From Arenibacter catalasegens (GTDB taxonomy: Bacteria > Bacteroidota > Bacteroidia > Flavobacteriales > Flavobacteriaceae): a stretch of DNA of 64,000 bases. Position 1 is the first letter of the stretch. Every line of letters begins with the position of its first letter. A program made the translations under genes and the position numbers. The stretch covers positions 62,001 to 126,000 of the forward strand of contig NZ_PHQQ01000004.1 of assembly GCF_002909235.1 (NCBI RefSeq), in the 5' to 3' direction. Shown here piece after piece: positions 36,282 through 61,423 of this stretch. A model generated the notes under the pieces. That model made no database searches. It worked only from the letters and a program-made list of their open reading frames with translations, and was not told the DNA's origin.

Positions 36282-39200
36282 CTAAAAAGTTACATTCAAC
36301 CCAATTGCAAACATTGCGAAGGGCACATCATCACTATTTACACCCGAATTGTATTCCGGACTGAACCCTTTGGTATTTGTAAACATAAATGGATTGGTTG
36401 CTTGTACATAGATTCTTAAATGACCTAGCCCTAAGTGACTTATTAACTCATTGGGTAAGGTGTAACCCAAAGTTATATCCGAGACCCTAATAAAGTCCGT
36501 ATCCACTACGGCAAAGGAATTCGTTGGTGTTTTACCTGACCCCCCAGCGCCATCTAAACCATAATAGTCATTGGTAGGATTTGTACTTGTCCAATAGTTG
36601 AGACTGGCATCTGCATTATATCGATCCTCGTTTATTTGACCAAAAGTCCCAGTCAGGTAATTACTTTTCCATTGTAAACCTTGTCTGGTATAGATAAAGA
36701 AGGAAAAATCGATGTTTTTGTACTTAATTTGGTTTTGAATACCCATAATAAAATCAGGAACTTCAGACCCAACGATTACCCGGTCGTCATCTTCTGTTAT
36801 TTTGCCATCTCCATTTTGATCAACAAACTTTACATTACCAGGTTCGTAACCAAATCCTTCTGCCTCTGCTGCTTCGTCTGTTTGCCATATCCCGGCCACT
36901 TCATAGTAATAAAGTGCATTAACCGACTCGCCAACAAATCTATTGTTTCCAATGTCCTGAGTAAGGCCCCCGGCCAATTTAGTTACCTCATTTTTATTTT
37001 TGCTAAAATTTACGGAGGTAGACCATCTAAAATCTTCTTTATCAATATTGACAGTGTTCAAAAGAACTTCTACGCCCGAATTGCGAATCTCACCCACATT
37101 GGCTACGACATCGGTAAATCCAGTTGAATTGGGTAGTTTATCACCCAAGATCAAATCAACGGTTTTTCTATCGTAAACTTCGATCGAAGTGGAGATCCTA
37201 TTATTAAAGAGCCCCATATTAAGTCCGAAATTGAGTTCCTTGCTTCGCTCCCATACCAAATTTTTATTGGCCAGGTTGTTGATTGCAAACCCATAGGCCG
37301 GAGAACCGTCAAAATCGTACTGGGTTTGGGTCACTGTAGATTGGGTGTCGTATGGACTAATAGAAGTAGCGTTACCCACTTCGCCATAACTTGCCCTTAA
37401 TTTCAAATTTGAGACCAAGTTTGAATTTTTGATAAAATCCTCTTCACCCACTTGCCATGCTATGGCTACTGAAGGAAAAAATTGCCATTTGTTGCCTTCA
37501 GACAATACAGATGCGCCGTCAGTTCTGCCAGTTACAGTCAACAAATATTTATTCTTAAAACTATAATTGACCCGCCCCATGTAAGAAATTAAGGCTTGCT
37601 CGGACAAAAAGGACTCGTTATTGGTAACCTCACCATCTCCCAGGGAAAACCATAAGGACCTAAATGGTAGATCCTTTACATCTATCCGAGAATATTGTTC
37701 TCTTTCATGAAAAATACTGTATAAGCCCGTTACGGTCAAATTGTGAGAGTCCGAATTTAGCTTATAGGTTATTGTATTGTCCAAGGTATAGGAAGACACA
37801 TCGGTGGTTTGCTGATTGGCTTTAGGCAAGCGAGTGGTTTTTTGGGACTTGGTGTAGGTGCCCCTATAATCACCGGCCCTTTGGTTAGATACTGCTGCAG
37901 AAAGCGAGGATCTGAACGACAATCCCCTAACGGGAGTAAAATCGACATAGGCATTCGCCAATAGGGATGAACGACGGGTTTCAAGAACAAAATTTTCAGG
38001 ATTTATTTCGACAAAAGGGTTAATAACCTGATTGTCATTAATTCCCATAAAAACCGCATACCCATTCCAATCTTTGTCCTGAGCCTGATCTTGTGGCAAT
38101 AAATCGTCATAATAAACAGTTCCTGTAGGTCTTGCTCTGTAAGCCGATCGCAGCGCCTCGGTCCCTGCCAAATTTTGCTTACTATAGGTATAGTAAGTTG
38201 ACATACCTACTTTTAACTTATCGTTTAAAATACTTTGGATTCCTCCTTTTATAGTATATCTTTTAAAACCAGTTTCCAAAGTATTTCCCTCTTCGTTCAA
38301 ATAACCTGCTGAAAAGTCGTAGGTGGTTTTATCAGATCCACCGGATAGCGCAAGATCATGGGTACTTTGCAATGCGGCACCCGTTATCAAATCGAGCCAA
38401 TCGACTGTTGTTCCATTTTGGACATTGGCCAATTCACTGTCGGTTATATTACGAGGATTCCTTCCTGTTTCCTGAGGACGCAATACATAGTTCTTGTTAT
38501 AGAACTGTTGCGCGTTCATCATATCGGGGAGGTTCGTAGGTACTTTTATTCCTGTATAGTTTTTATAGGTCACTTTCGGCTTACCCGACACCCCTTTCTT
38601 GGTTGTGATAATAATTACCCCATTGGCGCCACGTGAACCATAAATAGCCGTAGATGATGCGTCTTTCAATACATCCATGGCCGCAATATCATTAGGGTTC
38701 ATTGCATTTATATCACCCCCGACAACCCCATCAATTACAACAAGGGGAGCACTTGACTCACTATCGCCAAAACTACTTAGGCCCCGGATATCAATAGTGA
38801 AACCATCTCCCGGTCTACCTTTTACTTTATTGATATTAACACCAGTTACCTGCCCTTGCAGAGCGGCGGCAGCTTGTACAGGATTTGCCCTAACGATTGC
38901 CTGAGTACTGATAGAGGATACCGCCCCGGTTAAATCCCGTCTTTTCTGGGTTCCATAACCAACAACTACAACCTCTTCTAGTCCAGAGGCATCTACCTCT
39001 AGGGTCACAGTTATATTCTCTTGCCCATTGATAGAAATTTCTTTAGAAGCAAAACCAATGTAGGATATCTTTAAAACAGCCTTTTCATTGGTGACGGCTA
39101 GTGAAAAATTACCATCAAAATCGGTTTGGGTTCCATTTAAGGTTCCCATTTCAACAATGCTCGCTCCTGGTAAAGGCCCACCATCTTCGTCGTATACCAT

Positions 39201-39632
39201 ACCCGAGACTTCGAATTGCTGCTGCTTCTGCTGCTGCGAAATCACTTCGGTAGGCTTATCATTTGAGATACGTTCCCGGATAACGATACGATTTTTTTGT
39301 GACAGTTCAAATTCAACAGCACTGTTGGATAAACTTTGTTTTAGGAGCTCATCTACTCCGATCTCTCCTTTCTTTAATTGTACCTTAGGCGCGTTTGTAA
39401 ACAAATCGGCAGGATATAAAAAACGATACTTTGTTTGGTCCTGAATAATATCAAAGACCTCATCTACAGAAACTACCTTATCTACTTCAATAGATATTTT
39501 TTCTTGAGAAAAAGATTTTTCTGTAGTAATTCCAAAAACGGTTGTGCACAATAAGAAGATAAAGGCTTTCATAATCAAAATTAGCACCCGCATTCGGACG
39601 AATGACTGCGACTTAATTAATTTAATTTTCAT
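36282..39632 (-). CDS. SusC-like TonB-dependent transporter with STN signalling domain
   Basis: A 1116-residue outer-membrane importer. In order: signal peptide (about 1-43), STN secretin/TonB N-terminal domain (about 45-115, with DEVFDIIQDQTKYRF), carboxypeptidase-D-like repeat (about 143-215, VSGMVYDEDGGPLPGASI), TonB box and plug (VVVVGYGTQKRRD, then SGKPKVTYKNY) and a 22-strand barrel ending in the aromatic GLNVTF. The STN domain normally contacts a FecR anti-sigma factor to report substrate passage, and a FecR gene sits directly upstream. The mRNA leader contains a hairpin and a 17-nt element complementary to a predicted small RNA at 56.5 kb. Confidence 0.95.
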   Translation of the reverse strand: MKIKLIKSQSFVRMRVLILIMKAFIFLLCTTVFGITTEKSFSQEKISIEVDKVVSVDEVFDIIQDQTKYRFLYPADLFTNAPKVQLKKGEIGVDELLKQSLSNSAVEFELSQKNRIVIRERISNDKPTEVISQQQKQQQFEVSGMVYDEDGGPLPGASIVEMGTLNGTQTDFDGNFSLAVTNEKAVLKISYIGFASKEISINGQENITVTLEVDASGLEEVVVVGYGTQKRRDLTGAVSSISTQAIVRANPVQAAAALQGQVTGVNINKVKGRPGDGFTIDIRGLSSFGDSESSAPLVVIDGVVGGDINAMNPNDIAAMDVLKDASSTAIYGSRGANGVIIITTKKGVSGKPKVTYKNYTGIKVPTNLPDMMNAQQFYNKNYVLRPQETGRNPRNITDSELANVQNGTTVDWLDLITGAALQSTHDLALSGGSDKTTYDFSAGYLNEEGNTLETGFKRYTIKGGIQSILNDKLKVGMSTYYTYSKQNLAGTEALRSAYRARPTGTVYYDDLLPQDQAQDKDWNGYAVFMGINDNQVINPFVEINPENFVLETRRSSLLANAYVDFTPVRGLSFRSSLSAAVSNQRAGDYRGTYTKSQKTTRLPKANQQTTDVSSYTLDNTITYKLNSDSHNLTVTGLYSIFHEREQYSRIDVKDLPFRSLWFSLGDGEVTNNESFLSEQALISYMGRVNYSFKNKYLLTVTGRTDGASVLSEGNKWQFFPSVAIAWQVGEEDFIKNSNLVSNLKLRASYGEVGNATSISPYDTQSTVTQTQYDFDGSPAYGFAINNLANKNLVWERSKELNFGLNMGLFNNRISTSIEVYDRKTVDLILGDKLPNSTGFTDVVANVGEIRNSGVEVLLNTVNIDKEDFRWSTSVNFSKNKNEVTKLAGGLTQDIGNNRFVGESVNALYYYEVAGIWQTDEAAEAEGFGYEPGNVKFVDQNGDGKITEDDDRVIVGSEVPDFIMGIQNQIKYKNIDFSFFIYTRQGLQWKSNYLTGTFGQINEDRYNADASLNYWTSTNPTNDYYGLDGAGGSGKTPTNSFAVVDTDFIRVSDITLGYTLPNELISHLGLGHLRIYVQATNPFMFTNTKGFSPEYNSGVNSDDVPFAMFAIGLNVTF

Positions 39633-39647
39633 AAATTTACATGGTAT

Positions 39648-39664
39648 TGGTTAGACATTAGTTT
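39648..39664 (-). promoter_or_regulatory. Candidate small-RNA target in first susC leader
   Basis: The plus strand reads TGGTTAGACATTAGTTT here and again, identically, at 56500-56516. On the susC mRNA (minus strand) this is the complement, ending 15 nt before the ATG, within the ribosome-binding region. The copy at 56.5 kb lies inside a predicted plus-strand small RNA, so the two transcripts could pair over 17 nt. A shared protein-binding site is the alternative. Confidence 0.5.
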
Positions 39665-39678
39665 AAGTAATACGCTCT

Positions 39679-39726
39679 AAAGGGACGAAGTTGATGCACC
39701 GCTAAATGTTCTTCTTCGCTCCCTTT
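39679..39726 (-). terminator. Hairpin between fecR and susC
   Basis: Arms 39679-39690 and 39714-39726 pair over 12 bp with one bulge (AAAGGGA-CGAAG against its complement), leaving a loop of about 23 nt. It occupies the gap between fecR and susC on the minus strand. No long T-run follows, so it may be a processing or attenuation structure rather than a full terminator. Confidence 0.5.
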
Positions 39727-39737
39727 TATAAAAAATA

Positions 39738-40907
39738 TTATTTTAAAAGGATTGTTTTATTAATTATTTCATAATCCCTTATGACTCCGAAATTTTTAAT
39801 TGTATTCAATATATCTTCAATATTTTGATCTTTACCCAACGCTCCATTAAATAGTGCTTTTTCAAGTTTAGGACTCTCAAAATTAACATCGATATCATAC
39901 CAGCGTGATAACACCTTCATAATCTCTACTAACGGTTTTCTACGAAAACTAAAAACACCTTCTTTCCAGGAAATCTCGTTATAAACATTGACGGTAGCTA
40001 TATCTATGCTGTCATCATTAAGGTTCAGGCTTGCTTGTTGTGAAGGCTCCAGTACATTTTTTGTAGATGCCGTACTAATTGCCACTTTGCCTTCCACTAA
40101 AGTTGTATATATTGTAGTTTCTTCCTTGTAGGCTTTAATATTGAATTCTGTGCCCAAGACCTCTATTTCTTGAAATTGATTGAAAACTATAAATTTTGAG
40201 CCGTCATGTTCAGTGCTCGGAGAAACATCGAAGTACCCTTCACCGTATACGAGTTCAATTTGACGGGGTTGTCCTTTTATGAAGTTTACCGGATACTTAA
40301 GCCGCGACTCGGAATTCAACCACACTTCTGTTCCATCAGACAAAACCAGGTGAAACTGTCCTCCTCTTGGAACAGTTAATAAATTGAAGACCACTTCTGA
40401 AATATTGCTTTCCCCTGCTCCGTACATGATTTCTTCACCATCACTATGGACATTTTGTGTTTGATAAGCACTACCCTTCCCTAAAGCAACTTGAGAGCCG
40501 TCCTCCAAGGTCAAGGTTGCTTTATTGGAACCATTCTCTATATTATTGCTAATTATTCTAGGTTGCGTTTCAATGGGTTCAGTAAAGATATTGTCCTTAA
40601 GGAAATAACCTGTGACCAATAAACCTGTAACAACTGCGGCAGCGGCATAACTTATAACCCGACGCATTCTTTGGAGTCTATAAGTCTTTTTCTCCTCGAC
40701 CATTAATTTCTGCAACTTGCTTTTTAATTTATTGGCGTCGAATTGTTTCATTTCGTGTTCAATTGCAAAATTGGTTTGGACATAGGAGTTGAACAATTGT
40801 TCGTTTCTAGCATCTTTCAACCAAAACTCTAGTTCATCCAAATCGGCTAGAGAAGCCTGATGGGTCAAGAATTTGGCTATTAGAGCTTTCACTTTTTGAT
40901 CGTTCAT
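39738..40907 (-). CDS. FecR-family anti-sigma factor
   Basis: A 389-residue inner-membrane regulator. It has a cytoplasmic N-terminal sigma-binding region (1-80, with LDELEFWLKDARN), one membrane segment (about 84-103, SYAAAAVVTGLLVTGYF), a periplasmic FecR domain (about 115-290, with TVPRGGQFHLVLSDGTEVWLN-type core and LGTEFNIKAY) and a C-terminal STN-like DUF4974 domain (about 310-389, FRRKPLVEIMKVLSRWYDIDV). It would hold the ECF sigma factor until SusC signals substrate uptake. It precedes susC on the same strand and is divergent from the sigma gene. Confidence 0.95.
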   Translation of the reverse strand: MNDQKVKALIAKFLTHQASLADLDELEFWLKDARNEQLFNSYVQTNFAIEHEMKQFDANKLKSKLQKLMVEEKKTYRLQRMRRVISYAAAAVVTGLLVTGYFLKDNIFTEPIETQPRIISNNIENGSNKATLTLEDGSQVALGKGSAYQTQNVHSDGEEIMYGAGESNISEVVFNLLTVPRGGQFHLVLSDGTEVWLNSESRLKYPVNFIKGQPRQIELVYGEGYFDVSPSTEHDGSKFIVFNQFQEIEVLGTEFNIKAYKEETTIYTTLVEGKVAISTASTKNVLEPSQQASLNLNDDSIDIATVNVYNEISWKEGVFSFRRKPLVEIMKVLSRWYDIDVNFESPKLEKALFNGALGKDQNIEDILNTIKNFGVIRDYEIINKTILLK

Positions 40908-41014: not shown

Positions 41015-41632
41015 ATGCTTAACAATTATTTAGATAACACACAATTTATTGAGGCCTTAAAGTCGGGGGATTCAAAAGCGTACACCGTCCTAGTCGATTA
41101 CTTTCATCATAAGCTCTGTATTTATGCGTATAGTCTAGTCAATGATCAGAATGCTGCTGAAGATATTGTACAGAACGTTTTTATTCGTACTTGGAAGAAA
41201 CGAGATCAATTAAAGTGTGATTTTGAAATTAGAAGTTTTCTTTATAAATCCGTTTATAACGAATTTATAGATGAATATCGGAAACAGAAGTTAGTTGTTC
41301 CCTTGGAGAAAAAATATATTGAAGCACTTACCATTATTGTCGAAAATGAAGATCAATATGCCTTAGATCGAAAAATAAATCTAGTAAAAAAAGAAATTAA
41401 CAACCTGCCTCCCAAATGCAAGGAAATATTTATGTTAAGCAAACATGATGGACTGACAAATTTAGAGATTGCGGAGTATAAACAGGTTTCGGTTAAATCC
41501 GTTGAAGCCCATATCACTAAAGCCTTTGCTATACTTAGGCAGTCAATTGGGCAAGAGATGCATCAAGTCTTATTTCTATTATTCAAAACAATAAAAGGTA
41601 AACAACCCGAAATCGCTATTGACAAGAAGTAG
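41015..41632 (+). CDS. ECF RNA polymerase sigma factor (FecI-like)
   Basis: A 205-residue sigma factor. Region 2 (about 20-90) has the typical DYFHHKLCIYAYSLVND and AEDIVQNVFIRTWKKR; region 4 (about 130-185) has INNLPPKCKEIFMLSKHDGLTNLEIAEYKQVSVKSVEAHI with a helix-turn-helix. It should direct transcription of the adjacent susCD under FecR control. It is divergent from fecR with 107 bp between, which is less common than the usual fecI-fecR order on one strand. I find no clear TAnnTTTG promoter in the shared gap. Confidence 0.95.
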   Translation: MLNNYLDNTQFIEALKSGDSKAYTVLVDYFHHKLCIYAYSLVNDQNAAEDIVQNVFIRTWKKRDQLKCDFEIRSFLYKSVYNEFIDEYRKQKLVVPLEKKYIEALTIIVENEDQYALDRKINLVKKEINNLPPKCKEIFMLSKHDGLTNLEIAEYKQVSVKSVEAHITKAFAILRQSIGQEMHQVLFLLFKTIKGKQPEIAIDKK

Positions 41633-51495: not shown

Positions 51496-52965
51496 TTAAT
51501 TGACCCACTCGGGATTCTGTACTAGTACACCATCCGAATTATCAATATCCGTTTGATATAGCGGCTGATAATAATTTTTAGGGCCATTCCAAACTTTCCT
51601 TCCTACATCACTTGGAATCATTTTTTCCGGTCTTGCCAGGAATTCTTCCAAATCATATATCCCTGCTTTATCCCATCTGATTAGATTCTGGTAGCGGAAA
51701 TTTTCACCGGCCAGTTCTACCCTTGTCTCGTGGATCAAATCATTTATATCCGCTCCGGATACTGGAGCTAAACTAGTTCTTTCTCGCACAGCGTTTATCA
51801 AATCATCCCCAGCACCTGCACCATTCAACCTGATTTGTGCCTCTGCTACTAACAAATAGGTATCGGCCGCTCTTAAAAATGGAATATTTAGACCATGATT
51901 AAAGTTACCTGATTCCGTCCAGTCCATATATTTAAAATAACTATGTCCTGTATTGGTTAAATCTGAAGTGTGTTCTATCAGTCCCAAAGAACCTTGAAGC
52001 GAAAATTCGCCATCAGAAATAATGGTTACACTTTTCCTAATGTCTCCAGCTTCATATTCGTTTACCAAATCATCCAAAGGCTCCTGGAACCCATACATCC
52101 CCCATGGTCTAGGACCTCTGTGTTTGGACATTATGCTTTGGTTGATCCAATCCATATCGTTCATCATGATAAAAAGGTTTTCCTTTAAATATTGATTACC
52201 TTCACGAAAAAGGGAAAGATAATCGTCCGCTAAGGGATAATTGTCTACAACATTTTGACCCGCTGTAATTGCCTTGTTCAAAAATTCAGTATTGTTGTAT
52301 TCTGTAGCCCTATGCATATATATGGACGTCATTACTGCCCAAGCAGCACCCTTGCCAACACTTCCGGCAACATTGTTCAAAGGAAGAAGACCAACAGCCT
52401 TTTCCAAATCGGCCAATATAAAATCACTCAAAATTTCAGGCGACTCACATTTTGGAATGTTGTATTCATTGGTCAAAACATTTTCTTCTGTAATTATGGG
52501 AACTTGTCCGTGTATAAGATATAAGCGGTAATAGGCATATGCCCGTAAAAAATAGGCTTGTCCCATAATTGAATTGTACGAAGCATCACCTATAGCTCCT
52601 AATTCCTTTACTTTTGGACCATTGATCAAAATACCGTTGGCACTACTGATCACCTCATATTTATATCGATAGGTATCCCTTAGCTTATAGTTGGAGGGAT
52701 TGGTGTTAAAAGTTTCAATCTCCTCGTCTTCTGCATGATCTCCCGCTCTCCAATGGTCATCCCCCTGATTGTCAAAGAATAGGTCGTGCATACCCAACGC
52801 CCTTGTAGCCCATTGTCCATAAGCACCGGCCAATGCGTCTACCATATCGGCTTCGGTAGTCCAATAATCTTGATCAGTTCGTTTCCCAACTAAATCCTGT
52901 TCCAATATATCATCACATGAAGTTGTCATGACTATTGCAATTAATATAATTATATACTTTTTCAT
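51496..52965 (-). CDS. SusD-like glycan-binding lipoprotein (second pair)
   Basis: A 489-residue surface lipoprotein (lipobox TTSCDD, Cys17) with the SusD start DDILEQDLVGKRTDQDYW, the AYFLRAYAYYRLYLIHGQVPI helix pair, LRAADTYLLVAEAQIRLN and the C-terminal RVELAGENFRYQNLIRWDK and ending NPEWVN. It is shorter than the first SusD and clearly different, which suggests recognition of another oligosaccharide. It follows its SusC by 18 bp. Confidence 0.95.
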   Translation of the reverse strand: MKKYIIILIAIVMTTSCDDILEQDLVGKRTDQDYWTTEADMVDALAGAYGQWATRALGMHDLFFDNQGDDHWRAGDHAEDEEIETFNTNPSNYKLRDTYRYKYEVISSANGILINGPKVKELGAIGDASYNSIMGQAYFLRAYAYYRLYLIHGQVPIITEENVLTNEYNIPKCESPEILSDFILADLEKAVGLLPLNNVAGSVGKGAAWAVMTSIYMHRATEYNNTEFLNKAITAGQNVVDNYPLADDYLSLFREGNQYLKENLFIMMNDMDWINQSIMSKHRGPRPWGMYGFQEPLDDLVNEYEAGDIRKSVTIISDGEFSLQGSLGLIEHTSDLTNTGHSYFKYMDWTESGNFNHGLNIPFLRAADTYLLVAEAQIRLNGAGAGDDLINAVRERTSLAPVSGADINDLIHETRVELAGENFRYQNLIRWDKAGIYDLEEFLARPEKMIPSDVGRKVWNGPKNYYQPLYQTDIDNSDGVLVQNPEWVN

Positions 52966-52983: not shown

Positions 52984-55900
52984 TTAAAATGTAATGTTAG
53001 CACCAAGAACAACACTTTTGGACTGAGGATAATTGTTATAAATAACTCCACGAGTCAAATTATTTGTCCCACTTTCTTCAGGATCTACTCCATCAAAGTT
53101 AGTAAAGGTCAATAAGTTACGTCCAGAAATATAAAATTTCATATTGCTTACTCCTATCTGATCTGTAATAGTTTCAGGAATGGTATAGCCTAAAACTACA
53201 TCTTTCATTCTAAGGTAATTACCGCTTTTAATGCCTAATTCAGATACTCTGTAATTGTCATTTGCACGAATGGTGGACATTCTTGGATAGGTATTGGAAG
53301 TTCCTTCGCCAGTCCATCTCTGGTAGGCCACTGCATCCATGTTGGCGCTTTGTGTTGGGTCAATTCCCCGCATCATCATGGCATCGTACAGATCATGTCC
53401 AAATGCCCCACTGAACACAGCTGAAAAGTTAAACCCTTTATAGTTTAAATCTCCATGAAAGCCTAGAAGTAGACTAGGGTTGGCATCTCCTATATGCACC
53501 CTGTCCTTTTCATCAACAATATTATCCCCATTGGTATCCACAAAGCGAACATCACCAGGAGTAATATCTGCTCTACGTGCGTCACTTGAAATATTGGCAT
53601 CACTGTCAATTTCCCCTTGGTTTTGATAGATACCATCTGTTTTCCAGCCATAGAATGAACTAATCGGTTCTCCTTCATAAGTTCTGGTCTGATCTCCTCC
53701 AGAAATAAATTTACTTGAGCCGTAAAGTTTGGTTACTTCATTTTTTATTATAGTGGCATTCACCCCTAATTCAAAATTCAAATCCCCCACTTGTCCAACA
53801 TAGGATGGTTCAATTTCAAATCCAGAATTGTGCATTTCTCCAATATTGGAATCGGGAATAGCTACCAAACCGGCAGTATTCAGACCAGGTAAGGGAATTA
53901 GCATATCTGTAGTTAACCTGTCAAAATAGGCAACGTCCAAATTAAATTTATTATTGAAAAGGCCTAGCTCCAATAGAACGTTTAACGCACTTGTGGTTTC
54001 CCAAGTAATATCTGGATTCGCAAAAGATGCCAATCGGGTTCCGGTTAAATTGGTGTCGTTCAGAACATATTCGGTATCCTTATTATATACATTTAGATAT
54101 TGAAAGGCATTTACATTTTGATTCCCTAGTTGTCCCCAACCTACATTTAGTTTCATGTTGGAAATTGTTGGGTCATCTGCCAAAAAGCTTTCATTGGAAA
54201 TTCTCCATCCACCGGAAATTGAAGGGAAATACCCCCAACGATTTCCATCCGCAAATCTTGAAGAACCATCTGCCCTAAAAATAGCGGACAAATAATACTT
54301 GTCATTGTAACCGTAGGTTCCACGTACAAATGCGGAGGCCAATCCAGTGGCTAAATAATCATTCCCACCGCCTTTTATGATAGAAGCATTATCCATTACC
54401 AATTGGTTTTCGTCTACAGAGGCAAAACCCTCCCCGGACATATTAAGGAAATGACCTTTATCTACTTGTCCGGATATCCCAAGTACAGCTCCTATGTTGT
54501 GTAGTCCTGTAGATTTTTTATAGCTAGTAAATAATTCTCCCAGGGTGACAGTGGTTTCATCCGTATTGATCCTAAGTATAGGTAGGTTTTCCGTTCTTGA
54601 CTGATCTGGAGTGATGTTCTGAAAGGCTTCATATTTGGAAGTAGATTTTTGATAAGACGCCCTAGCTGTAAGCGTTAATTCATCGGTAAAATCATAATCC
54701 GCTTTCATACTTATCAGCGTATTAAATTTATATCGATGTCTCCATTCTTCCTTTGCCTTATATACAGGGTTCCACATATCTCCCAATTGGGTGGAAGCCT
54801 TTCCAGAACCATAACTGCCATCTTCATATTTTACTGGGATAGCGGGCATAAATCTATAGGAAGAATAGATAGTTTGAGAGGTTCCTGTTCCACCGTCGTC
54901 CTGCGTCAATAAGGTGTGATTGTTGGTAATCCTTATATTTTCCTCAATTCTAAATCGATCTGATATTTTCTGTGTACCTCTCAAAGAAATCCCCAAGCGT
55001 TTAAAGTAGGTATTTATCTGGGTGCCTTCTTCATCCCTATAAAAAATATTGGCATTAATGGTCGATTTTTCTGAACCACCACTTATGTTCATATTATAAT
55101 CTTGAAAAATACCGTCCCGGAACATTTCTTCTTGCCAATCCGTTCTAGTCTGATTGTAGTACTCATCTGCCCATGGCGAATTTGGGTCAATGGGAAGACC
55201 GTCCATAACGTATCTTTCACGTTTTAATTCGTAAAGCTGTTCCGCATTGGTTACAGGATACTTATTTATGACGCTGTTAAAACCCGTAGAGGCATTAAGT
55301 CTTACTGTTGTTTTCTCGTTAAATCTTGCCGTATTGGTAGTAATTAAAACAACACCGTTAGCTGCACGCGTACCATAAATAGCACCCGATGCCGCATCTT
55401 TGAGTATCTCCACAGATTGTATTTCTGAAGAAGCCAGTTGTGATAACATATCAGAAGATACAGGTACCCCATCCAAAACGATAAGAGGTTGAGAGTTATT
55501 TATTGTTCCAATTCCCCTGATTCTGATGCTAGGTGTACTTCCTGGTGTTCCAGAATTAACAAATTCCACACCCGAGGCCCTGCCCTGTAACGCCATAGCT
55601 GCATTGGAAGCTGTGGATGTTTGAAAATCCTTACCGTTTATCTGCGAAATAGATGAAGTTACCTCACTTTTTTTCTGGGTACCATAACCTACCACTACCA
55701 CATCATCCAGCTGGGTTGCATCTATAGGGAGGATGGTATTTATAACGGACTTTCCATTGACCACTACTTCAACAGTTTTGTAACCTATATAACTGAAAAC
55801 CAATGTTCCAGATGAACCCACCTCAATGGAATAATTGCCATCAAAATCGGTAACTGTTCCCGTGGCAGTGCCCTTTACGACCACACTGGCACCAGGTAGC

Positions 55901-56082
55901 GGAGTACCGTTGTCGTCACTGACTACACCGGTAACGGTGGTAGACTGAAAATTAACTTCGAAAATTGTTTTTACGTCAATCTTATGGGCATACGTAATTT
56001 GTATTCCCGAAGCATATAGTACTGCTAACAGGAATAAGCTTCCAACCCTTGGCTTTTGTCTTAAATTAATTTTAAATTTCAT
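52984..56082 (-). CDS. SusC-like TonB-dependent transporter (second pair)
   Basis: A 1032-residue outer-membrane importer without an STN domain. After the signal peptide comes a carboxypeptidase-D-like repeat (about 48-125, TGVVSDDNGTPLPGASVVVKG), the TonB box/plug (VVVVGYGTQKKSEVTSS, then RIRGIGTINNSQPLIVLDG) and a barrel ending in VLGANITF. Since it lacks STN it is not controlled through FecR. A LacI-type palindrome 60 bp upstream of its start may provide control instead. Confidence 0.95.
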   Translation of the reverse strand: MKFKINLRQKPRVGSLFLLAVLYASGIQITYAHKIDVKTIFEVNFQSTTVTGVVSDDNGTPLPGASVVVKGTATGTVTDFDGNYSIEVGSSGTLVFSYIGYKTVEVVVNGKSVINTILPIDATQLDDVVVVGYGTQKKSEVTSSISQINGKDFQTSTASNAAMALQGRASGVEFVNSGTPGSTPSIRIRGIGTINNSQPLIVLDGVPVSSDMLSQLASSEIQSVEILKDAASGAIYGTRAANGVVLITTNTARFNEKTTVRLNASTGFNSVINKYPVTNAEQLYELKRERYVMDGLPIDPNSPWADEYYNQTRTDWQEEMFRDGIFQDYNMNISGGSEKSTINANIFYRDEEGTQINTYFKRLGISLRGTQKISDRFRIEENIRITNNHTLLTQDDGGTGTSQTIYSSYRFMPAIPVKYEDGSYGSGKASTQLGDMWNPVYKAKEEWRHRYKFNTLISMKADYDFTDELTLTARASYQKSTSKYEAFQNITPDQSRTENLPILRINTDETTVTLGELFTSYKKSTGLHNIGAVLGISGQVDKGHFLNMSGEGFASVDENQLVMDNASIIKGGGNDYLATGLASAFVRGTYGYNDKYYLSAIFRADGSSRFADGNRWGYFPSISGGWRISNESFLADDPTISNMKLNVGWGQLGNQNVNAFQYLNVYNKDTEYVLNDTNLTGTRLASFANPDITWETTSALNVLLELGLFNNKFNLDVAYFDRLTTDMLIPLPGLNTAGLVAIPDSNIGEMHNSGFEIEPSYVGQVGDLNFELGVNATIIKNEVTKLYGSSKFISGGDQTRTYEGEPISSFYGWKTDGIYQNQGEIDSDANISSDARRADITPGDVRFVDTNGDNIVDEKDRVHIGDANPSLLLGFHGDLNYKGFNFSAVFSGAFGHDLYDAMMMRGIDPTQSANMDAVAYQRWTGEGTSNTYPRMSTIRANDNYRVSELGIKSGNYLRMKDVVLGYTIPETITDQIGVSNMKFYISGRNLLTFTNFDGVDPEESGTNNLTRGVIYNNYPQSKSVVLGANITF

Positions 56083-56141
56083 GTTTATAATAATTTTTAA
56101 GTTGATTTTCCCTTGTACTAATATATTTCAAGACGGTATGA

Positions 56142-56155
56142 CTTAAACGTTTAAG
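56142..56155. promoter_or_regulatory. LacI-type operator-like palindrome upstream of second susC
   Basis: CTTAAACGTTTAAG is a perfect 14-bp palindrome with a central CG, the hallmark of LacI/GalR-family operators. It lies 60 bp upstream of the susC start, near where the promoter should be. No LacI-type regulator is encoded in the window, so the cognate protein would be elsewhere. Confidence 0.5.
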
Positions 56156-56479
56156 CAAGTAAAGACATTTAATCCCTTATAAAGAATGTTGGTTCATATT
56201 CTGAATGGAGAAGAAATAAAAAATTGCTGTAGAATATTAAGAATCATCTGTATAGCGCTAAATACAATTTGCCCGATACTACCATTCACTGAAGAGTAAA
56301 GATGTTCTATAAAAGCTTATCGATTATTGCCGATTTCCTATAATGCTCTTATTATACTATTATAGCAGGAGCAAAAAATCACTAACAAAATTCATAAGTT
56401 GAAGTTTAACTAGGATTTTTTTAGTAGAATTATAGCATAAAAATGGAGGCAAACCGAATAAGTTACTGAGGTTTTTTCA

Positions 56480-56487
56480 TATCTTTG
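56480..56487 (+). promoter_or_regulatory. Bacteroidota -7 promoter element for the small RNA
   Basis: TATCTTTG matches the TAnnTTTG consensus of the primary sigma factor in this phylum. It predicts a transcription start near 56493. A convincing -33 element (TTG/TTTG) is not obvious upstream. Confidence 0.45.
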
Positions 56488-56492
56488 TATTG

Positions 56493-56567
56493 CTTTAAGT
56501 GGTTAGACATTAGTTTTAATCGCTTCTTAAATTTTCGGGGAATGTGACCGCATTTCCCGATTTTTTT
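56493..56567 (+). ncRNA. Predicted ~75-nt trans-acting small RNA
   Basis: The region runs from just after a TAnnTTTG promoter element to a strong intrinsic terminator, with no open frame and no ribosome-binding context. Bases 56500-56516 (TGGTTAGACATTAGTTT) are identical on the plus strand to 39648-39664, so the RNA is perfectly complementary over 17 nt to the leader of the first susC mRNA, 16-32 nt before its start codon. This would allow repression or activation of susC translation. Size and architecture (5' pairing region, 3' terminator hairpin) are those of bacterial trans-acting sRNAs. Existence and start site are inferred. Confidence 0.5.
56535..56567 (+). terminator. Intrinsic terminator of the predicted small RNA
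   Basis: Arms 56535-56546 and 56549-56560 form a GC-rich stem of about 12 pairs including two G-U wobbles; the innermost pairs would open to form the loop. Seven T residues (56561-56567) follow directly on the plus strand. No plus-strand gene lies upstream of it in this gap, so it must end a separate short transcript. Confidence 0.7.
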
Positions 56568-56729
56568 CAACCCTAATTTATAAATTTTTTTCTTAAAAAC
56601 TTGATTTTTGCATTAACAAATAGTTAAGAATATTTCTTATTACGAAATAATTGCACAATTTTATGAGCTTAATCCATATTGAGAGCAAGTCAAATCAACA
56701 AAAAATATAACTAACCTCCTATGGCTTTC

Positions 56730-56767
56730 CCAAATTATTAATGCAAAGGTTTGCATTAATAATTTGG
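56730..56767. repeat. 38-bp palindrome
   Basis: Two 18-bp arms (56730-56747 and 56750-56767) are exact reverse complements around a GG centre. The AT-rich arms share the core AATTATTAATGCAAA. There is no T-run in either direction, so a terminator is less likely than a protein-binding or cruciform site. Confidence 0.8.
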
Positions 56768-57299
56768 TTGAATTTTCAACATTATTAAAAGGTATACTTC
56801 GGGTTTATTTGGTGGAGTGTTTATTGAATTTAATTTTATTAATTAAATGTAGTCAACCAATAAATATTGTGTTTAAGTAGTTGTTAACTAACTGATTAAG
56901 CGTAGTAAATTTTATTTAGTAATTGAAAATACAAGTTTGTAAACCTTCACTTTAGTCGTAAAAACTAATTCAAGGTCTATTATCATCCTGAATAAAAACT
57001 TTATTTATAGTACAGCTGATATTAGTCGAAATTACTTGCAAAAAGGTATTCTACGAATGAATTTATCCTATTATTGCAGAAAAAGTGTGAATTAAAACAC
57101 TATTTATTTTTATTTATTATCAATTTATAGGTTGTAATATCCAAAAAAGACTTTATTTAATTGGATTGCCGAAATCTTTGTGACTAAATAATGATAGGAA
57201 TGTCGTATCCAGAACATTTACTAAAAACGATATCACTTTAAATTTTTATTTATTTTTAAAAGAATAGGTCTAACCAATTGGAGTATCTATTATAACATT

Positions 57300-57802: not shown

Positions 57803-59884
57803 GTGATTTTGGTTTCCTGTAAACGAAAGCCGCTGTATGAAGGACCACTGAGTCCGCAAGAGTCCATGAAAACATTTCAGTTTGCAGAAAACTTTAAGGC
57901 GGAAATATTCGCATCAGAACCTTTAGTTATAGACCCTGTGTCCATGCAGTACGATGGAGATGGAAATGCTTACGTTGTGGGCATGTTGGATGCCTACAAG
58001 GATGATTCTGTAAAAGGAAAAGGGAAAATCGTTATGTTAAAGGACACTAATGGCGACGGAAAGGCCGACACGTCTACAGTTTTTGTAGACAGTCTTAGGG
58101 AGGCAACAAGTGTGTTGCCTTGGAAGGGTGGCCTGCTTGTATGTGCAGCACCTGATATCACGTATTATAAGGATACTGATGGAGATGGCCGTTCTGATGT
58201 AAAAGAGATTCTTTTTACCGGTTTCTTTAATAAGAATGAAGAGGTGCAAGTTACCAATCTTCGGTTTGGTATTGATAATTGGATTTATGCGAATAATGGC
58301 GGGCAGGCAGGTGAAATAAGTTTTAGCCGCAGACCTGATGCGCCCCGGTTAAATGTGCAGGGTGCCGATTTTCGCTTTCGGCTCGACCGGAATGAATTTG
58401 AACGTAGTACAGGACCAGGCCAGTTTGGACTTGCAATAGACGATTGGGGCCATCGGTTTTTTACAGCCAATTCCTTACACATTCGCGAGGTGGTGGTTCC
58501 ATTGAGATACCTTGAAAGAAACCCTTTTCTTCCAACTTCTGCTAAAAGTACGATTCAAAATATTTCGGACCATGATCCGCTTATGCACCAATTAAGTGAA
58601 ACGCCATACTGGAGACAGGTACGTTCTGACCGACGTAATAAGGATTACCAGGAAAATAACCTTGACAGGGTAGAATATGCAAGGGGTCATTTTACGGGGG
58701 CTTCAGGTGGTACGTACTACGATGGCGATAAGTTTCCAAAAGAATATTATGGTAATATCTTCACAGGCGATGTTGCAGGCAACTTGGTGCACCGGGATAT
58801 TCTTTCCGTTGCGGATAGTGTACCTTATATGGTAGCAAAGCAAGGCGAAAAGGAAAAAGATAAGGAATTTATGGCCACTACGGATTCGTGGTTTCGACCT
58901 GCAAATTTTTCAGTAGGCCCAGATGGTTATCTATATATTATGGATATGTACCGGCAACATATTGAAACACCAATGTCTATCCCTGAAGACCTGCAAGAGA
59001 CCATGGACTTCGACGCCGGGAATGAATACGGGCGTATTTACAGAATAGTACCTGTGGATGAAGGTGCATACAAGCCGGTGAACCCTAATCTCACCAAAGC
59101 GTCTTCTTCCGAACTGGTTAAAGCCTTGCAGCATGAAAATCGATGGTGGAACCTAACAGCTCAAAGGCTTCTATTGGAGCGCCAGGATAAAAGTGTGTTA
59201 CAAGAGGTAAGCACTTTGTTTTCCCAAAGTAAAAAACCAAGATTCAGATTACATGCCTTATATGTTTTAGAAGGAATGGATGCTCTGGATGCAGCTACTG
59301 TGAAGATGGCAATGAAAGATCCTTCAGCAGGAGTTCGAGAAAATGCTGCGATCCTTGCCGAACGCTTTCCTAGTTGTTTATCCCAGTTGGAAGAAATGAT
59401 TAACGACTCTTCAATCCGGGTCGCATTCCAAGCTACTCTGAGTATAGGTCAATTTAAAGATAACACGGTGATACCCGCTCTGGCAAAAGCGTTGGAACTA
59501 CATGGACAGAGTCCATGGTTCAGGACAGCAGTATTGAGTTCAGAAGCTGGATCAGGTATTGACCTTTTAAAATCCTTGGAGAAGAATTCTTTTTTTAAGG
59601 ACTCCTCATCGTGGAAGCTAAAATTTATTGAAACTTGTTCTTATGTAATTGGTGCTCGTAATGATAAAAGTCAGGTTTTTGGTTTAATTAGCATCCTAGA
59701 TCAACCTTCGCTATCATATTCGGCTAGCTGGCAGTCGGCAGGTATTAAGGGATTGCTCGAAGGAATTGGAAAATCGGAAGGCTTGGGAGATACCATAAAA
59801 GAAGAATTAAAAACCATTGGATCAGAAGCAGAAAGCAATGCAGCTAAAGCAATTCGAGATTTAAAAATAATGTATGCAGAATAA
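57803..59884 (+). CDS. PVC-type dehydrogenase-like lipoprotein without cytochrome domain
   Basis: A propeller domain (about 25-420, with DTNGDGKADTSTVF, VTNLRFGIDNWIYANNGG, FTGDVAGNLVHRD and FSVGPDGYLYIMDMYRQHIE) is followed by HEAT-like repeats (about 430-690). It resembles the N-terminal parts of the protein at 26.8-29.5 kb, but no CxxCH heme motif follows. The signal peptide lies in the same frame upstream of the GTG at 57803: bases 57734-57802 encode a basic region and LQFLIVFVVILVSC, but no ATG, GTG or TTG precedes it. An ATT at 57734 is the best-placed candidate. Likely partner: the HiPIP encoded next. Confidence 0.8.
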   Translation: MILVSCKRKPLYEGPLSPQESMKTFQFAENFKAEIFASEPLVIDPVSMQYDGDGNAYVVGMLDAYKDDSVKGKGKIVMLKDTNGDGKADTSTVFVDSLREATSVLPWKGGLLVCAAPDITYYKDTDGDGRSDVKEILFTGFFNKNEEVQVTNLRFGIDNWIYANNGGQAGEISFSRRPDAPRLNVQGADFRFRLDRNEFERSTGPGQFGLAIDDWGHRFFTANSLHIREVVVPLRYLERNPFLPTSAKSTIQNISDHDPLMHQLSETPYWRQVRSDRRNKDYQENNLDRVEYARGHFTGASGGTYYDGDKFPKEYYGNIFTGDVAGNLVHRDILSVADSVPYMVAKQGEKEKDKEFMATTDSWFRPANFSVGPDGYLYIMDMYRQHIETPMSIPEDLQETMDFDAGNEYGRIYRIVPVDEGAYKPVNPNLTKASSSELVKALQHENRWWNLTAQRLLLERQDKSVLQEVSTLFSQSKKPRFRLHALYVLEGMDALDAATVKMAMKDPSAGVRENAAILAERFPSCLSQLEEMINDSSIRVAFQATLSIGQFKDNTVIPALAKALELHGQSPWFRTAVLSSEAGSGIDLLKSLEKNSFFKDSSSWKLKFIETCSYVIGARNDKSQVFGLISILDQPSLSYSASWQSAGIKGLLEGIGKSEGLGDTIKEELKTIGSEAESNAAKAIRDLKIMYAE

Positions 59885-60024
59885 ATAGTTTTTTATAGCC
59901 AGATAGAATGCGGCTTTACGGCATAAAGAAATAGTTGTAACAAAATTATGGGGGTTTCCATGAAAGATGACGCAAACAGTTATTATTATCGTCAAATTAT
60001 ATCCATTAAAAAACAGTTTTAAAA

Positions 60025-60396
60025 ATGAGGAATAAAGACTATTCCAGAAGGAAATTTATAAATAAATGTTTTAAGACAGGGAGTTTGTTTTTAGGGGGCG
60101 CCCTCTTTCTTAACTGTCGCGGTACAAATGAATCTTCCAGTAATGAAAGTGAGAACAAGATACAAAGCACCCTAGAAGACCCTTGTAATGATCTAATTGG
60201 TATAAGCGACGGGGAAATTAAAAAGCGCCAAAGCTTAGGATATGTAAAACAATCTGCCGTTCCTAATAGTTCTTGTGGTAATTGCGCGCTCTATATCCCT
60301 CCAAAGTCAAATGAAAAATGTGGGAGGTGCATCCTATTTAAAGGACCGGTTTATGTCGAGGGTCACTGTATTCAATGGGCGGCCATTACTACATAA
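60025..60396 (+). CDS. HiPIP-like high-potential iron-sulfur protein, Tat-exported
   Basis: A 123-residue protein with a twin-arginine signal (SRRKFINKCFKTGS). The C-terminal half has SCGNCALY, KCGRCILFKGPVYVEGHCIQW, which follows the HiPIP pattern Cys-x2-Cys...Cys-x-LF-x-G...GHC-x2-W that binds one [4Fe-4S] cluster. HiPIPs shuttle electrons in the periplasm. It lies 140 bp after the dehydrogenase-like gene that lacks a cytochrome domain and may be its electron acceptor. An extra Cys in CGRC adds a fifth candidate ligand. Confidence 0.8.
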   Translation: MRNKDYSRRKFINKCFKTGSLFLGGALFLNCRGTNESSSNESENKIQSTLEDPCNDLIGISDGEIKKRQSLGYVKQSAVPNSSCGNCALYIPPKSNEKCGRCILFKGPVYVEGHCIQWAAITT

Positions 60397-60457
60397 TTGA
60401 AAAAATTCAGAAAAAAGTAGAAAATGTTCTAACCACTCCCCCATTAAATTTGTTCTT

Positions 60458-61423
60458 ATGTCAAAATCAAATAAAGGATTTTCCCGTCGTGAATTTATAG
60501 CAGGTACTAGTTTGTTCGCGCTGGGCACTTCTTTAAAACTAAACGCATTTACTGATATTTCAAACATCAAAAAAGAACTGATAATCGACATTCATCAGCA
60601 CACTCATTATGTGCAACGTACAGATGAACAACTGCTTGCACATCAAAGAGCAATGGGCATTACTACAACTATTCTATTGCCATCAGGTCGTCCGGTAAAT
60701 TCGCCATCTACTCATCAAGGCATAGCCAATGGATTGCAAGCTGAAGCGGGCGGAAATGCAGAATGTTACTTATTTGCAAGCCAACATAAGAAGGAATTCC
60801 GCTTTGGTGCTTGCGCTGTTCCAGACATGAAAGATGGGCTTTATGAGATTGAAAAATATTTAAAATTGGGAGCGGTGGTTATTGGTGAATTAAAATTTGG
60901 CGTCACCTGTGATTCGCCCGAGATGCAAAAAATTTACCAACTGGCACAAAACTATAATGTACCGGTACTAATGCATTGGCAGCATGAAATGTATAATTAT
61001 GGTTTCGAACGATTTTATAAAATGTTGGAGAAATATCCTAAAGTAAATTTCATTGGCCATGCGCAGACTTGGTGGGCTAATATTGACAAATATCATACAG
61101 ATCAATCTATCCTTTATCCTAAAAAACCTGTTACCCCAGGAGGAATTACCGACCGTTATCTTAGTGATTATCCGAACATGTATGGCGATCTTTCTGCGGG
61201 CTCAGGTCTTAATGCCCTTAAAAGAGATGAAGACCATGCGAAAGCTTTTTTGGAAAGACACCAGGACAAATTATTGTATGGAAGTGATTGTGCAGACCCA
61301 ACAGGCTCTGATCCAAAAAGTTGTTCGGGCACCCTGGATATTGCTGAGATCCGAAGACTAGTATCTAAACCAACCGAACGTAAAATATTATATGAAAATG
61401 CTAAGAAATTATTCCGTCTTTAA
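60458..61423 (+). CDS. Exported amidohydrolase-family metal-dependent hydrolase
   Basis: A 321-residue amidohydrolase (TIM barrel) with a twin-arginine-like signal (SRREFIAGTSLFALG). The metal site starts with IIDIHQHTHY (His46, His48), followed by MHWQHEMY, NFIGHAQTW and LLYGSDCADP. Members of this branch hydrolyse lactones (for example fuconolactonase type) or decarboxylate acids. A lactonase acting after periplasmic oxidation of a sugar by the dehydrogenase two genes upstream is a plausible role, but this is inference. Confidence 0.82.
   Translation: MSKSNKGFSRREFIAGTSLFALGTSLKLNAFTDISNIKKELIIDIHQHTHYVQRTDEQLLAHQRAMGITTTILLPSGRPVNSPSTHQGIANGLQAEAGGNAECYLFASQHKKEFRFGACAVPDMKDGLYEIEKYLKLGAVVIGELKFGVTCDSPEMQKIYQLAQNYNVPVLMHWQHEMYNYGFERFYKMLEKYPKVNFIGHAQTWWANIDKYHTDQSILYPKKPVTPGGITDRYLSDYPNMYGDLSAGSGLNALKRDEDHAKAFLERHQDKLLYGSDCADPTGSDPKSCSGTLDIAEIRRLVSKPTERKILYENAKKLFRL

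Follow-up and report, generated by a model that had tools for sequence, protein, structure and literature searches.

SusCD importers determine polysaccharide uptake in Bacteroidota. The described systems most like the RNA gene analyzed here come chiefly from Bacteroides. In the portion of PMC7366714 available to us, DonS belongs to a group of RNAs, 78-128 nt in length, which reduce the expression of susC, and the corresponding portions of PMC10994844 and PMC9723704 report 32 PUL-associated antisense RNAs in B. thetaiotaomicron and 15 PULs with antisense RNAs in B. fragilis, respectively. On the evidence of these excerpts, such RNAs are short antisense RNAs divergent to the susC homologue of a PUL, and the RNAs described below are likened to them by position and layout. 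FopS and GibS of Bacteroides thetaiotaomicron are, in the available text of PMC11697453, multicopy small RNAs that act at susC translation starts; FopS has canonical Bacteroides promoters, and its members share a common seed and act in trans with RbpB. The part of PMC9723704 at hand also lists Flavo-1, an RNA motif found computationally in Flavobacteriaceae.

The locus studied here lies in a 64,000-nt stretch of Arenibacter catalasegens DNA, the whole of which was analyzed and is called the window. Like Flavo-1 it holds a flavobacterial RNA motif, but no Rfam 15 family reaches its gathering score anywhere in the window (0 matches). At E values up to 1, the two RNA regions described below gave weak matches to unrelated families, far below their gathering scores, and these were discarded. 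The usual members of the RNA family have the DonS-type layout, being divergent to susC and antisense to its leader; the window copy fits this layout solely if transcription of the neighboring SusC2 gene begins to the right of the RNA gene. The predicted length, from -7 box to terminator with the 5' end estimated, is ~75 nt as against 78-128 nt for the DonS type. The family differs from the DonS type in belonging to another lineage, in being definable as a sequence and structure family, and in placing its -7 box over the start codon, and the window copy differs further in having no full susC at its site. In contrast to FopS, the hairpins vary from paralogue to paralogue, and the usual copies each sit on a target of their own. 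A literature search on flavobacterial susC, antisense and small RNAs gave nothing on this RNA family among the matches listed, which is not a claim that it is absent from print. In the part of the Zobellia paper PMC5698469 that was available, "small RNA" occurs in the reference list alone, and the accessible part of PMC10861873 holds nothing further on this family.

The predicted small RNA and its family

The features of the window copy are as follows:

56478-56480: CAT, complement of the ancestral susC start codon, conserved across 66 distinct family rows
56480-56487, + strand: -7 promoter element TATCTTTG of the small RNA, from the sequence and the family alignment
56493-56567, + strand: predicted small RNA of ~75 nt, from comparative evidence and fold, 5' end estimated from the -7 box
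56497-56525, + strand: 5' hairpin with a GTGGTTA.../...TAATCGC stem, from covariation and fold
56500-56516, + strand: 17 nt identical to 39648-39664
56535-56567, + strand: Rho-independent terminator, hairpin 56535-56560 followed by T7

An earlier note on this DNA had described a complete small-RNA gene here, and each of its parts is present on the + strand of 56480-56567: the -7 box, a structured stretch of 75 nt and a strong terminator, with 11 pairs in the stem and then T7. The small-RNA stretch 56493-56567 folds into two hairpins. Its predicted folding energy on the + strand is -24.0 kcal/mol (z = -4.57, equaled by 0 of 200 shuffles), and on the - strand -11.5 (z = -1.56, equaled by 16 of 200). 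That this is a small-RNA gene is a prediction well supported by comparative evidence from the family, covariation, strand bias and fold.

BLAST of the genus with 56440-56575 returned many matches extending from promoter to terminator, besides short partial ones. A covariance model, R1, was built from 22 sequences. The earlier note had proposed a search of related genomes for the promoter-element-terminator unit, and R1 found matches in all 18 genus genomes, strong in 17 (E of 1.1e-9 or better) and at just 0.048 in the last, G001. The source genome itself (G000) has 11 matches, nine of them at E of 1.3e-6 or better. With one genome per genus, 37 of 149 genomes of the family match at E <= 1e-4. 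In the class, at least six of 295 genomes match, three of them in the same family; this count is a lower bound, with 14 candidates scored per genome. By eye, the ORF at two of the three matches outside the family resembles the STN type; that at L282 does not. When named genomes were scanned with a pattern, 55 stretches were obtained, 51 of them in Bacteroidota: Arenibacter (14, partly from the same genomes as the genus set), Zobellia, Maribacter, Kriegella, Sinomicrobium, Galbibacter, Algibacter and others, with one Fulvivirga. Among these 51 loci L138 alone fails the -7 expression. The four stretches in other phyla lack the -7 box and are unmatched by R1. Taken together, 56493-56567 looks like a member of a structured, multicopy family of putative antisense RNAs of Flavobacteriaceae, one that can be searched for by sequence and structure.

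Position at susC starts and coding strand

Usual copies sit at the starts of susC genes. At 48 of the 51 Bacteroidota pattern loci, an opposite-strand susC ORF starts 20-24 nt from GTGGTTA, and the N-termini of these ORFs are STN-type by eye (MKK...LKMKLS...). The three exceptions are L141 and L176, which are orphan-clade loci as described below, and L150, which is cut at the locus edge. A Pfam STN search of six genomes gave 58 rows, of which three in ORFs of 376-415 aa, the size of FecR, were left out. The element lies upstream of 53 of the remaining 55 STN-bearing ORFs; of the two without it, L222 has a different hairpin leader and L248 is a shorter ORF. The frequency of the element at STN-bearing susC genes in these six genomes suggests that antisense control of this class of importer is common outside Bacteroides too. 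The three ORFs set aside (G000:C11:73829, G003:C29:30252 and G006:C18:14312) have weak Pfam STN scores and lie by STN-susC genes.

The 53 STN loci, together with L083 and L230, make up 55 main-match loci. In 52 of these, the reading frame that starts at the CAT of the R1 match stays open up to the locus end over 100 aa or more; in the remaining three the ORFs are 72-91 aa, in short stretches. The CAT is invariant in the 66 distinct family rows and the A that follows it is kept in 65 of them. This layout marks the typical member as a probable antisense RNA to the susC leader with its -7 box over the start codon. In the alignments, the usual predicted member begins, on the strand opposite an STN-type susC, just upstream of the susC start codon and runs through the leader to its own terminator, which makes it complementary to the leader over its whole length. 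By analogy with DonS, usual members would lower the expression of their susC.

We also considered a code for the family based on a hypervariable hairpin loop; this was dropped, as loops of the C78, C23 and C34a types are conserved. In C37a-type copies (L083, L230 and L029), the RNA is nearly invariant save for the hairpin loop, which varies between species.

In nearly all copies read, the element falls within a susC leader, and the structure could in principle belong to the leader on the susC mRNA strand with no RNA gene involved. Strand-specific features make this highly improbable. In 52 distinct rows gathered without the pattern, the two stems hold 109 G.U and 2 A.C cells (counted in alignment A3, from whose 60 rows the five weakest, which overlap the opposite strand of stronger matches, were left out). 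The pattern-collected set gave 157 G.U and 2 A.C cells, some of its letters being fixed by the pattern itself. The RNA strand is favored because each G.U would be an A.C mismatch on the mRNA strand. In addition, the T-run lies on the + side and the z score of the + strand fold is far better.

Covariation was counted in an alignment that had been fitted to the model: eight of 17 pairs changed on both sides, in 25 cells against a shuffled mean of 4.1, with 0 of 500 shuffles as high. When the partners were slid by +1 as a control, six pairs and 18 cells were still doubly changed and 49.3% of cells paired. The unfitted alignment A1 gave three doubly changed pairs in six cells, with pair types no better than in shuffles (248 of 500). 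The covariation support is thus weaker than it first appears.

The orphan clade and SusC2

At the window copy, the gene that would ordinarily begin under the -7 box is reduced to a remnant, and the nearest susC lies further downstream:

51496-52965, - strand: SusD2
52984-56082, - strand: SusC2, a TonB-dependent transporter without a Pfam STN match, the conserved neighbor of the RNA
56463-56480, - strand: five-codon remnant ORF, MKKPQ-stop, at the ancestral susC start
56607-56630, no strand assigned: conserved box with the inverted repeat TTAAC-TATTT-GTTAA, candidate part of the SusC2 promoter region
56736-56765, no strand assigned: conserved palindrome ATGCAAAGGTTTGCAT, putatively operator-like

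Among the matches listed, this arrangement occurs in six of the 18 genus genomes (G000, G003, G005, G006, G011 and G017), which we call the orphan clade. Copies in the other 12 were read in part, and a weak orphan copy there is possible. In all six the ATG under the -7 box opens MKKPQ, MKKLQ, MNKLQ or MENLL and then meets a stop; an in-frame ATG at 56510 would extend the remnant of the window to 15 codons. The synteny is common to the window and its five relatives, with SusC2 starting 357-392 nt from the RNA in every case. SusC2 orthologues are 88-100% identical among the six and occur in none of the 12 other genus genomes. Judged from this gene order and distribution, the conserved partner of the predicted RNA is SusC2. 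The nearest other SusC2 homologue, in G010, is 45% identical and forms a longer ORF beside a canonical RNA copy, which suggests an origin of SusC2 from an STN-type susC whose front part was lost. The clade offers a natural experiment on an RNA whose start-codon target is gone, and the orphan RNA may still act on SusC2 or on another importer.

The likeliest explanation, to which we give about an even chance, is that the window RNA is antisense to a long SusC2 leader, any cross-pairing with the first susC of the window (SusC1, below) being secondary or added. SusC2 and SusD2 would be cotranscribed, their promoter lying beyond the right end of the RNA gene in the neighborhood of the boxes at 56607-56630 and 56736-56765, and the resulting leader would contain the full complement of the RNA. 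Pairing there would cause the SusC2D2 mRNA to be processed or terminated early. The RNA could not act by covering the start codon, as the pairing site would be ~400 nt from the SusC2 start. In the source species, the same hairpin might pair with the SusC1 leader as a side effect or in an added role.

The region upstream of SusC2 was examined for such a promoter. The box at 56607-56630, which is upstream of the RNA as seen from SusC2, occurs at all six orphan loci. The palindrome around ATGCAAAGGTTTGCAT extends to 17 pairs (56730-56767), and its core is found at five of the six loci, the contig ending in G005; no regulator gene was recognized among the scanned neighbors of this palindrome. In G003 and G011, the conserved boxes fall in the gap before the next gene, which is PorP/SprF-like. 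The motif TAnnTTTG is absent from the - strand throughout 56083-56900, from the spacer and the conserved boxes alike, so the SusC2 promoter would be of another type or further away. This result lowered our confidence in action on the SusC2 leader and raised that in a decaying relic.

If it is a relic, the RNA gene lost its function together with the STN part of the neighboring susC and its erosion is still pending. Besides the missing promoter of the common type, the degree of conservation is consistent with this: between the same genome pairs, orphan RNAs are 77-87% identical and canonical copies 86-99%, that is, the orphan is conserved at or below the level of the canonical copies, which points to weaker constraint. 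The hairpin loop of the orphan also differs in G003 and G005 from that of the other four (the loop-group comparison held three of the six orphans, all six being compared in a separate alignment). However, the -7 box, the terminator hairpin and the T-run are kept in all six genomes, while the spacer toward SusC2 has fallen to 36-72% identity between G000 and the other five, against 65-94% for the RNA and promoter region. On this balance we consider loss of function decidedly improbable, and regulation of SusC2 from its leader remains our preferred reading.

As a separate observation, SusC2 and the PorP/SprF gene are separated here by 57803-61423, which encodes a DUF7133/HEAT protein, a HiPIP-like protein and an amidohydrolase, whereas in G003 and G011 the PorP/SprF gene adjoins the SusC2 upstream region directly. 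Either the segment was inserted in this genome or it was lost elsewhere.

Complementarity with the SusC1 leader

The earlier note had drawn attention to a 17-nt match between the small RNA and the leader of the first susC of the window. The features of that region are:

36282-39632, - strand: SusC1
39644-39728, + strand: second antisense-RNA element, in the SusC1 leader, with a 5' hairpin, a terminator-like hairpin and the other copy of the 17-mer
39648-39664, + strand: the 17-mer, whose complement lies in the SusC1 mRNA 16-32 nt ahead of the ATG
39738-40907, - strand: FecR-type anti-sigma factor beside SusC1 (Pfam)
41015-41632, + strand: ECF-like sigma factor with Sigma70 regions 2 and 4 (Pfam)

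The match is exact and complementary to the SusC1 leader as claimed. The 17-mer TGGTTAGACATTAGTTT has exactly two copies in the window, at 39648-39664 and 56500-56516, both on the + strand, and no further match at up to three mismatches. The view that such a match is unlikely by chance also held: such matches averaged 0.25 over 100 shuffles, one of which had two, and the whole 5.45-Mb genome holds the 14-nt core at just these two sites. The label "STN-type" for SusC1 was not borne out, in that Pfam STN gave no score at E of 0.001 or 0.01; about 140 residues precede its CarbopepD_reg_2 domain.

The 17-mer proved to be the 5' hairpin shared by two antisense-RNA elements that are built alike, SusC1 having its own. 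The SusC1 element (39644-39728) folds with z = -4.96 on the + strand and z = -2.26 on the - strand, the latter equaled by 5 of 200 shuffles. It is highly similar across seven SusC1-type leaders, is missed by the R1 model, and has a short T-run in the source genome. Of the six orphan genomes, just G000 and G011 have an SusC1 orthologue (86% or more); another is present in G004, which has no SusC2 orthologue and no orphan copy among the matches listed.

Given the SusC1 match, the RNA could instead be a cis-antisense RNA in transition to regulation in trans, the STN-susC start beneath it having been lost: freed of its cis partner, it would now repress SusC1, and perhaps the susC of the C37 system, near the start codon in a FopS-like manner. 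If true, FopS-like trans networks could originate in this way from DonS-like cis pairs. We regard both the proposed transition and the proposed repression as unlikely. In the comparison of leaders, 70 loci were listed and 60 used, after removal of six without a start and four with a wrong start.

The complementarity itself is perfect over 17 nt and placed 16-32 nt before the ATG; when 5' hairpin regions were compared within genomes, in 365 pairs, just one exact match was longer. Among 10 leaders of the source genome, the predicted duplexes of the window RNA with C37a (-35.9) and SusC1 (-33.0) stand out, the next being -22.9. The longest exact matches of the orphan RNA within its own genome are with SusC1 in G000 (17 nt) and G011 (13 nt) and with C2e, a distant SusC1-like leader, in G006 (12 nt). 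Foreign orphans match the SusC1 of G000 by 12 nt at most (G017).

Against this, an SusC1 orthologue is missing from four of the six orphan genomes, SusC1 carries its own element, and the match is in part the GGTTA hairpin common to the family. The best predicted orphan duplex is with a leader of another genome in four of the six genomes. In G011, two of the 12 own leaders outrank SusC1, and the predicted duplex of the orphan is marginally stronger with SusC1 from G000 (-26.2) than with the SusC1 of G011 itself (-25.8). In G006, the closest SusC1-like leader matches the orphan by only 7 nt, while a foreign match, between the G006 orphan and the C37a leader of G000, reaches 15 nt.

A trans role toward SusC1 is thus possible in this species, yet it is not the conserved relation. 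Of the earlier proposal that one SusCD system tunes the other, the complementarity with the SusC1 leader stands; the 17-mer as a lone seed does not, and the conserved partner of the putative RNA is the adjacent SusC2, whose leader we still favor as the site of action. Among other sites, three one-mismatch 13-mer matches occur in the source genome. Two (L037 and L038) lie in coding sequence and were rejected as leaders; the one at C37:14125 corresponds to the C37a copy, of which it forms the 5' hairpin. A G006 match from the search with the 17-mer core (L002) was set aside as lying inside coding sequence.

Membership of the window RNA in FopS was rejected: the R1' seed is lacking, and the best local match is 11 nt with one mismatch, equaled by 94 of 1000 shuffles. 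The 5' consensus of FopS, as printed in the available part of PMC11697453, contains ATG AAA AAC in its reverse complement and reads like the complement of a susC start, as if FopS had derived from the antisense strand of such a start.
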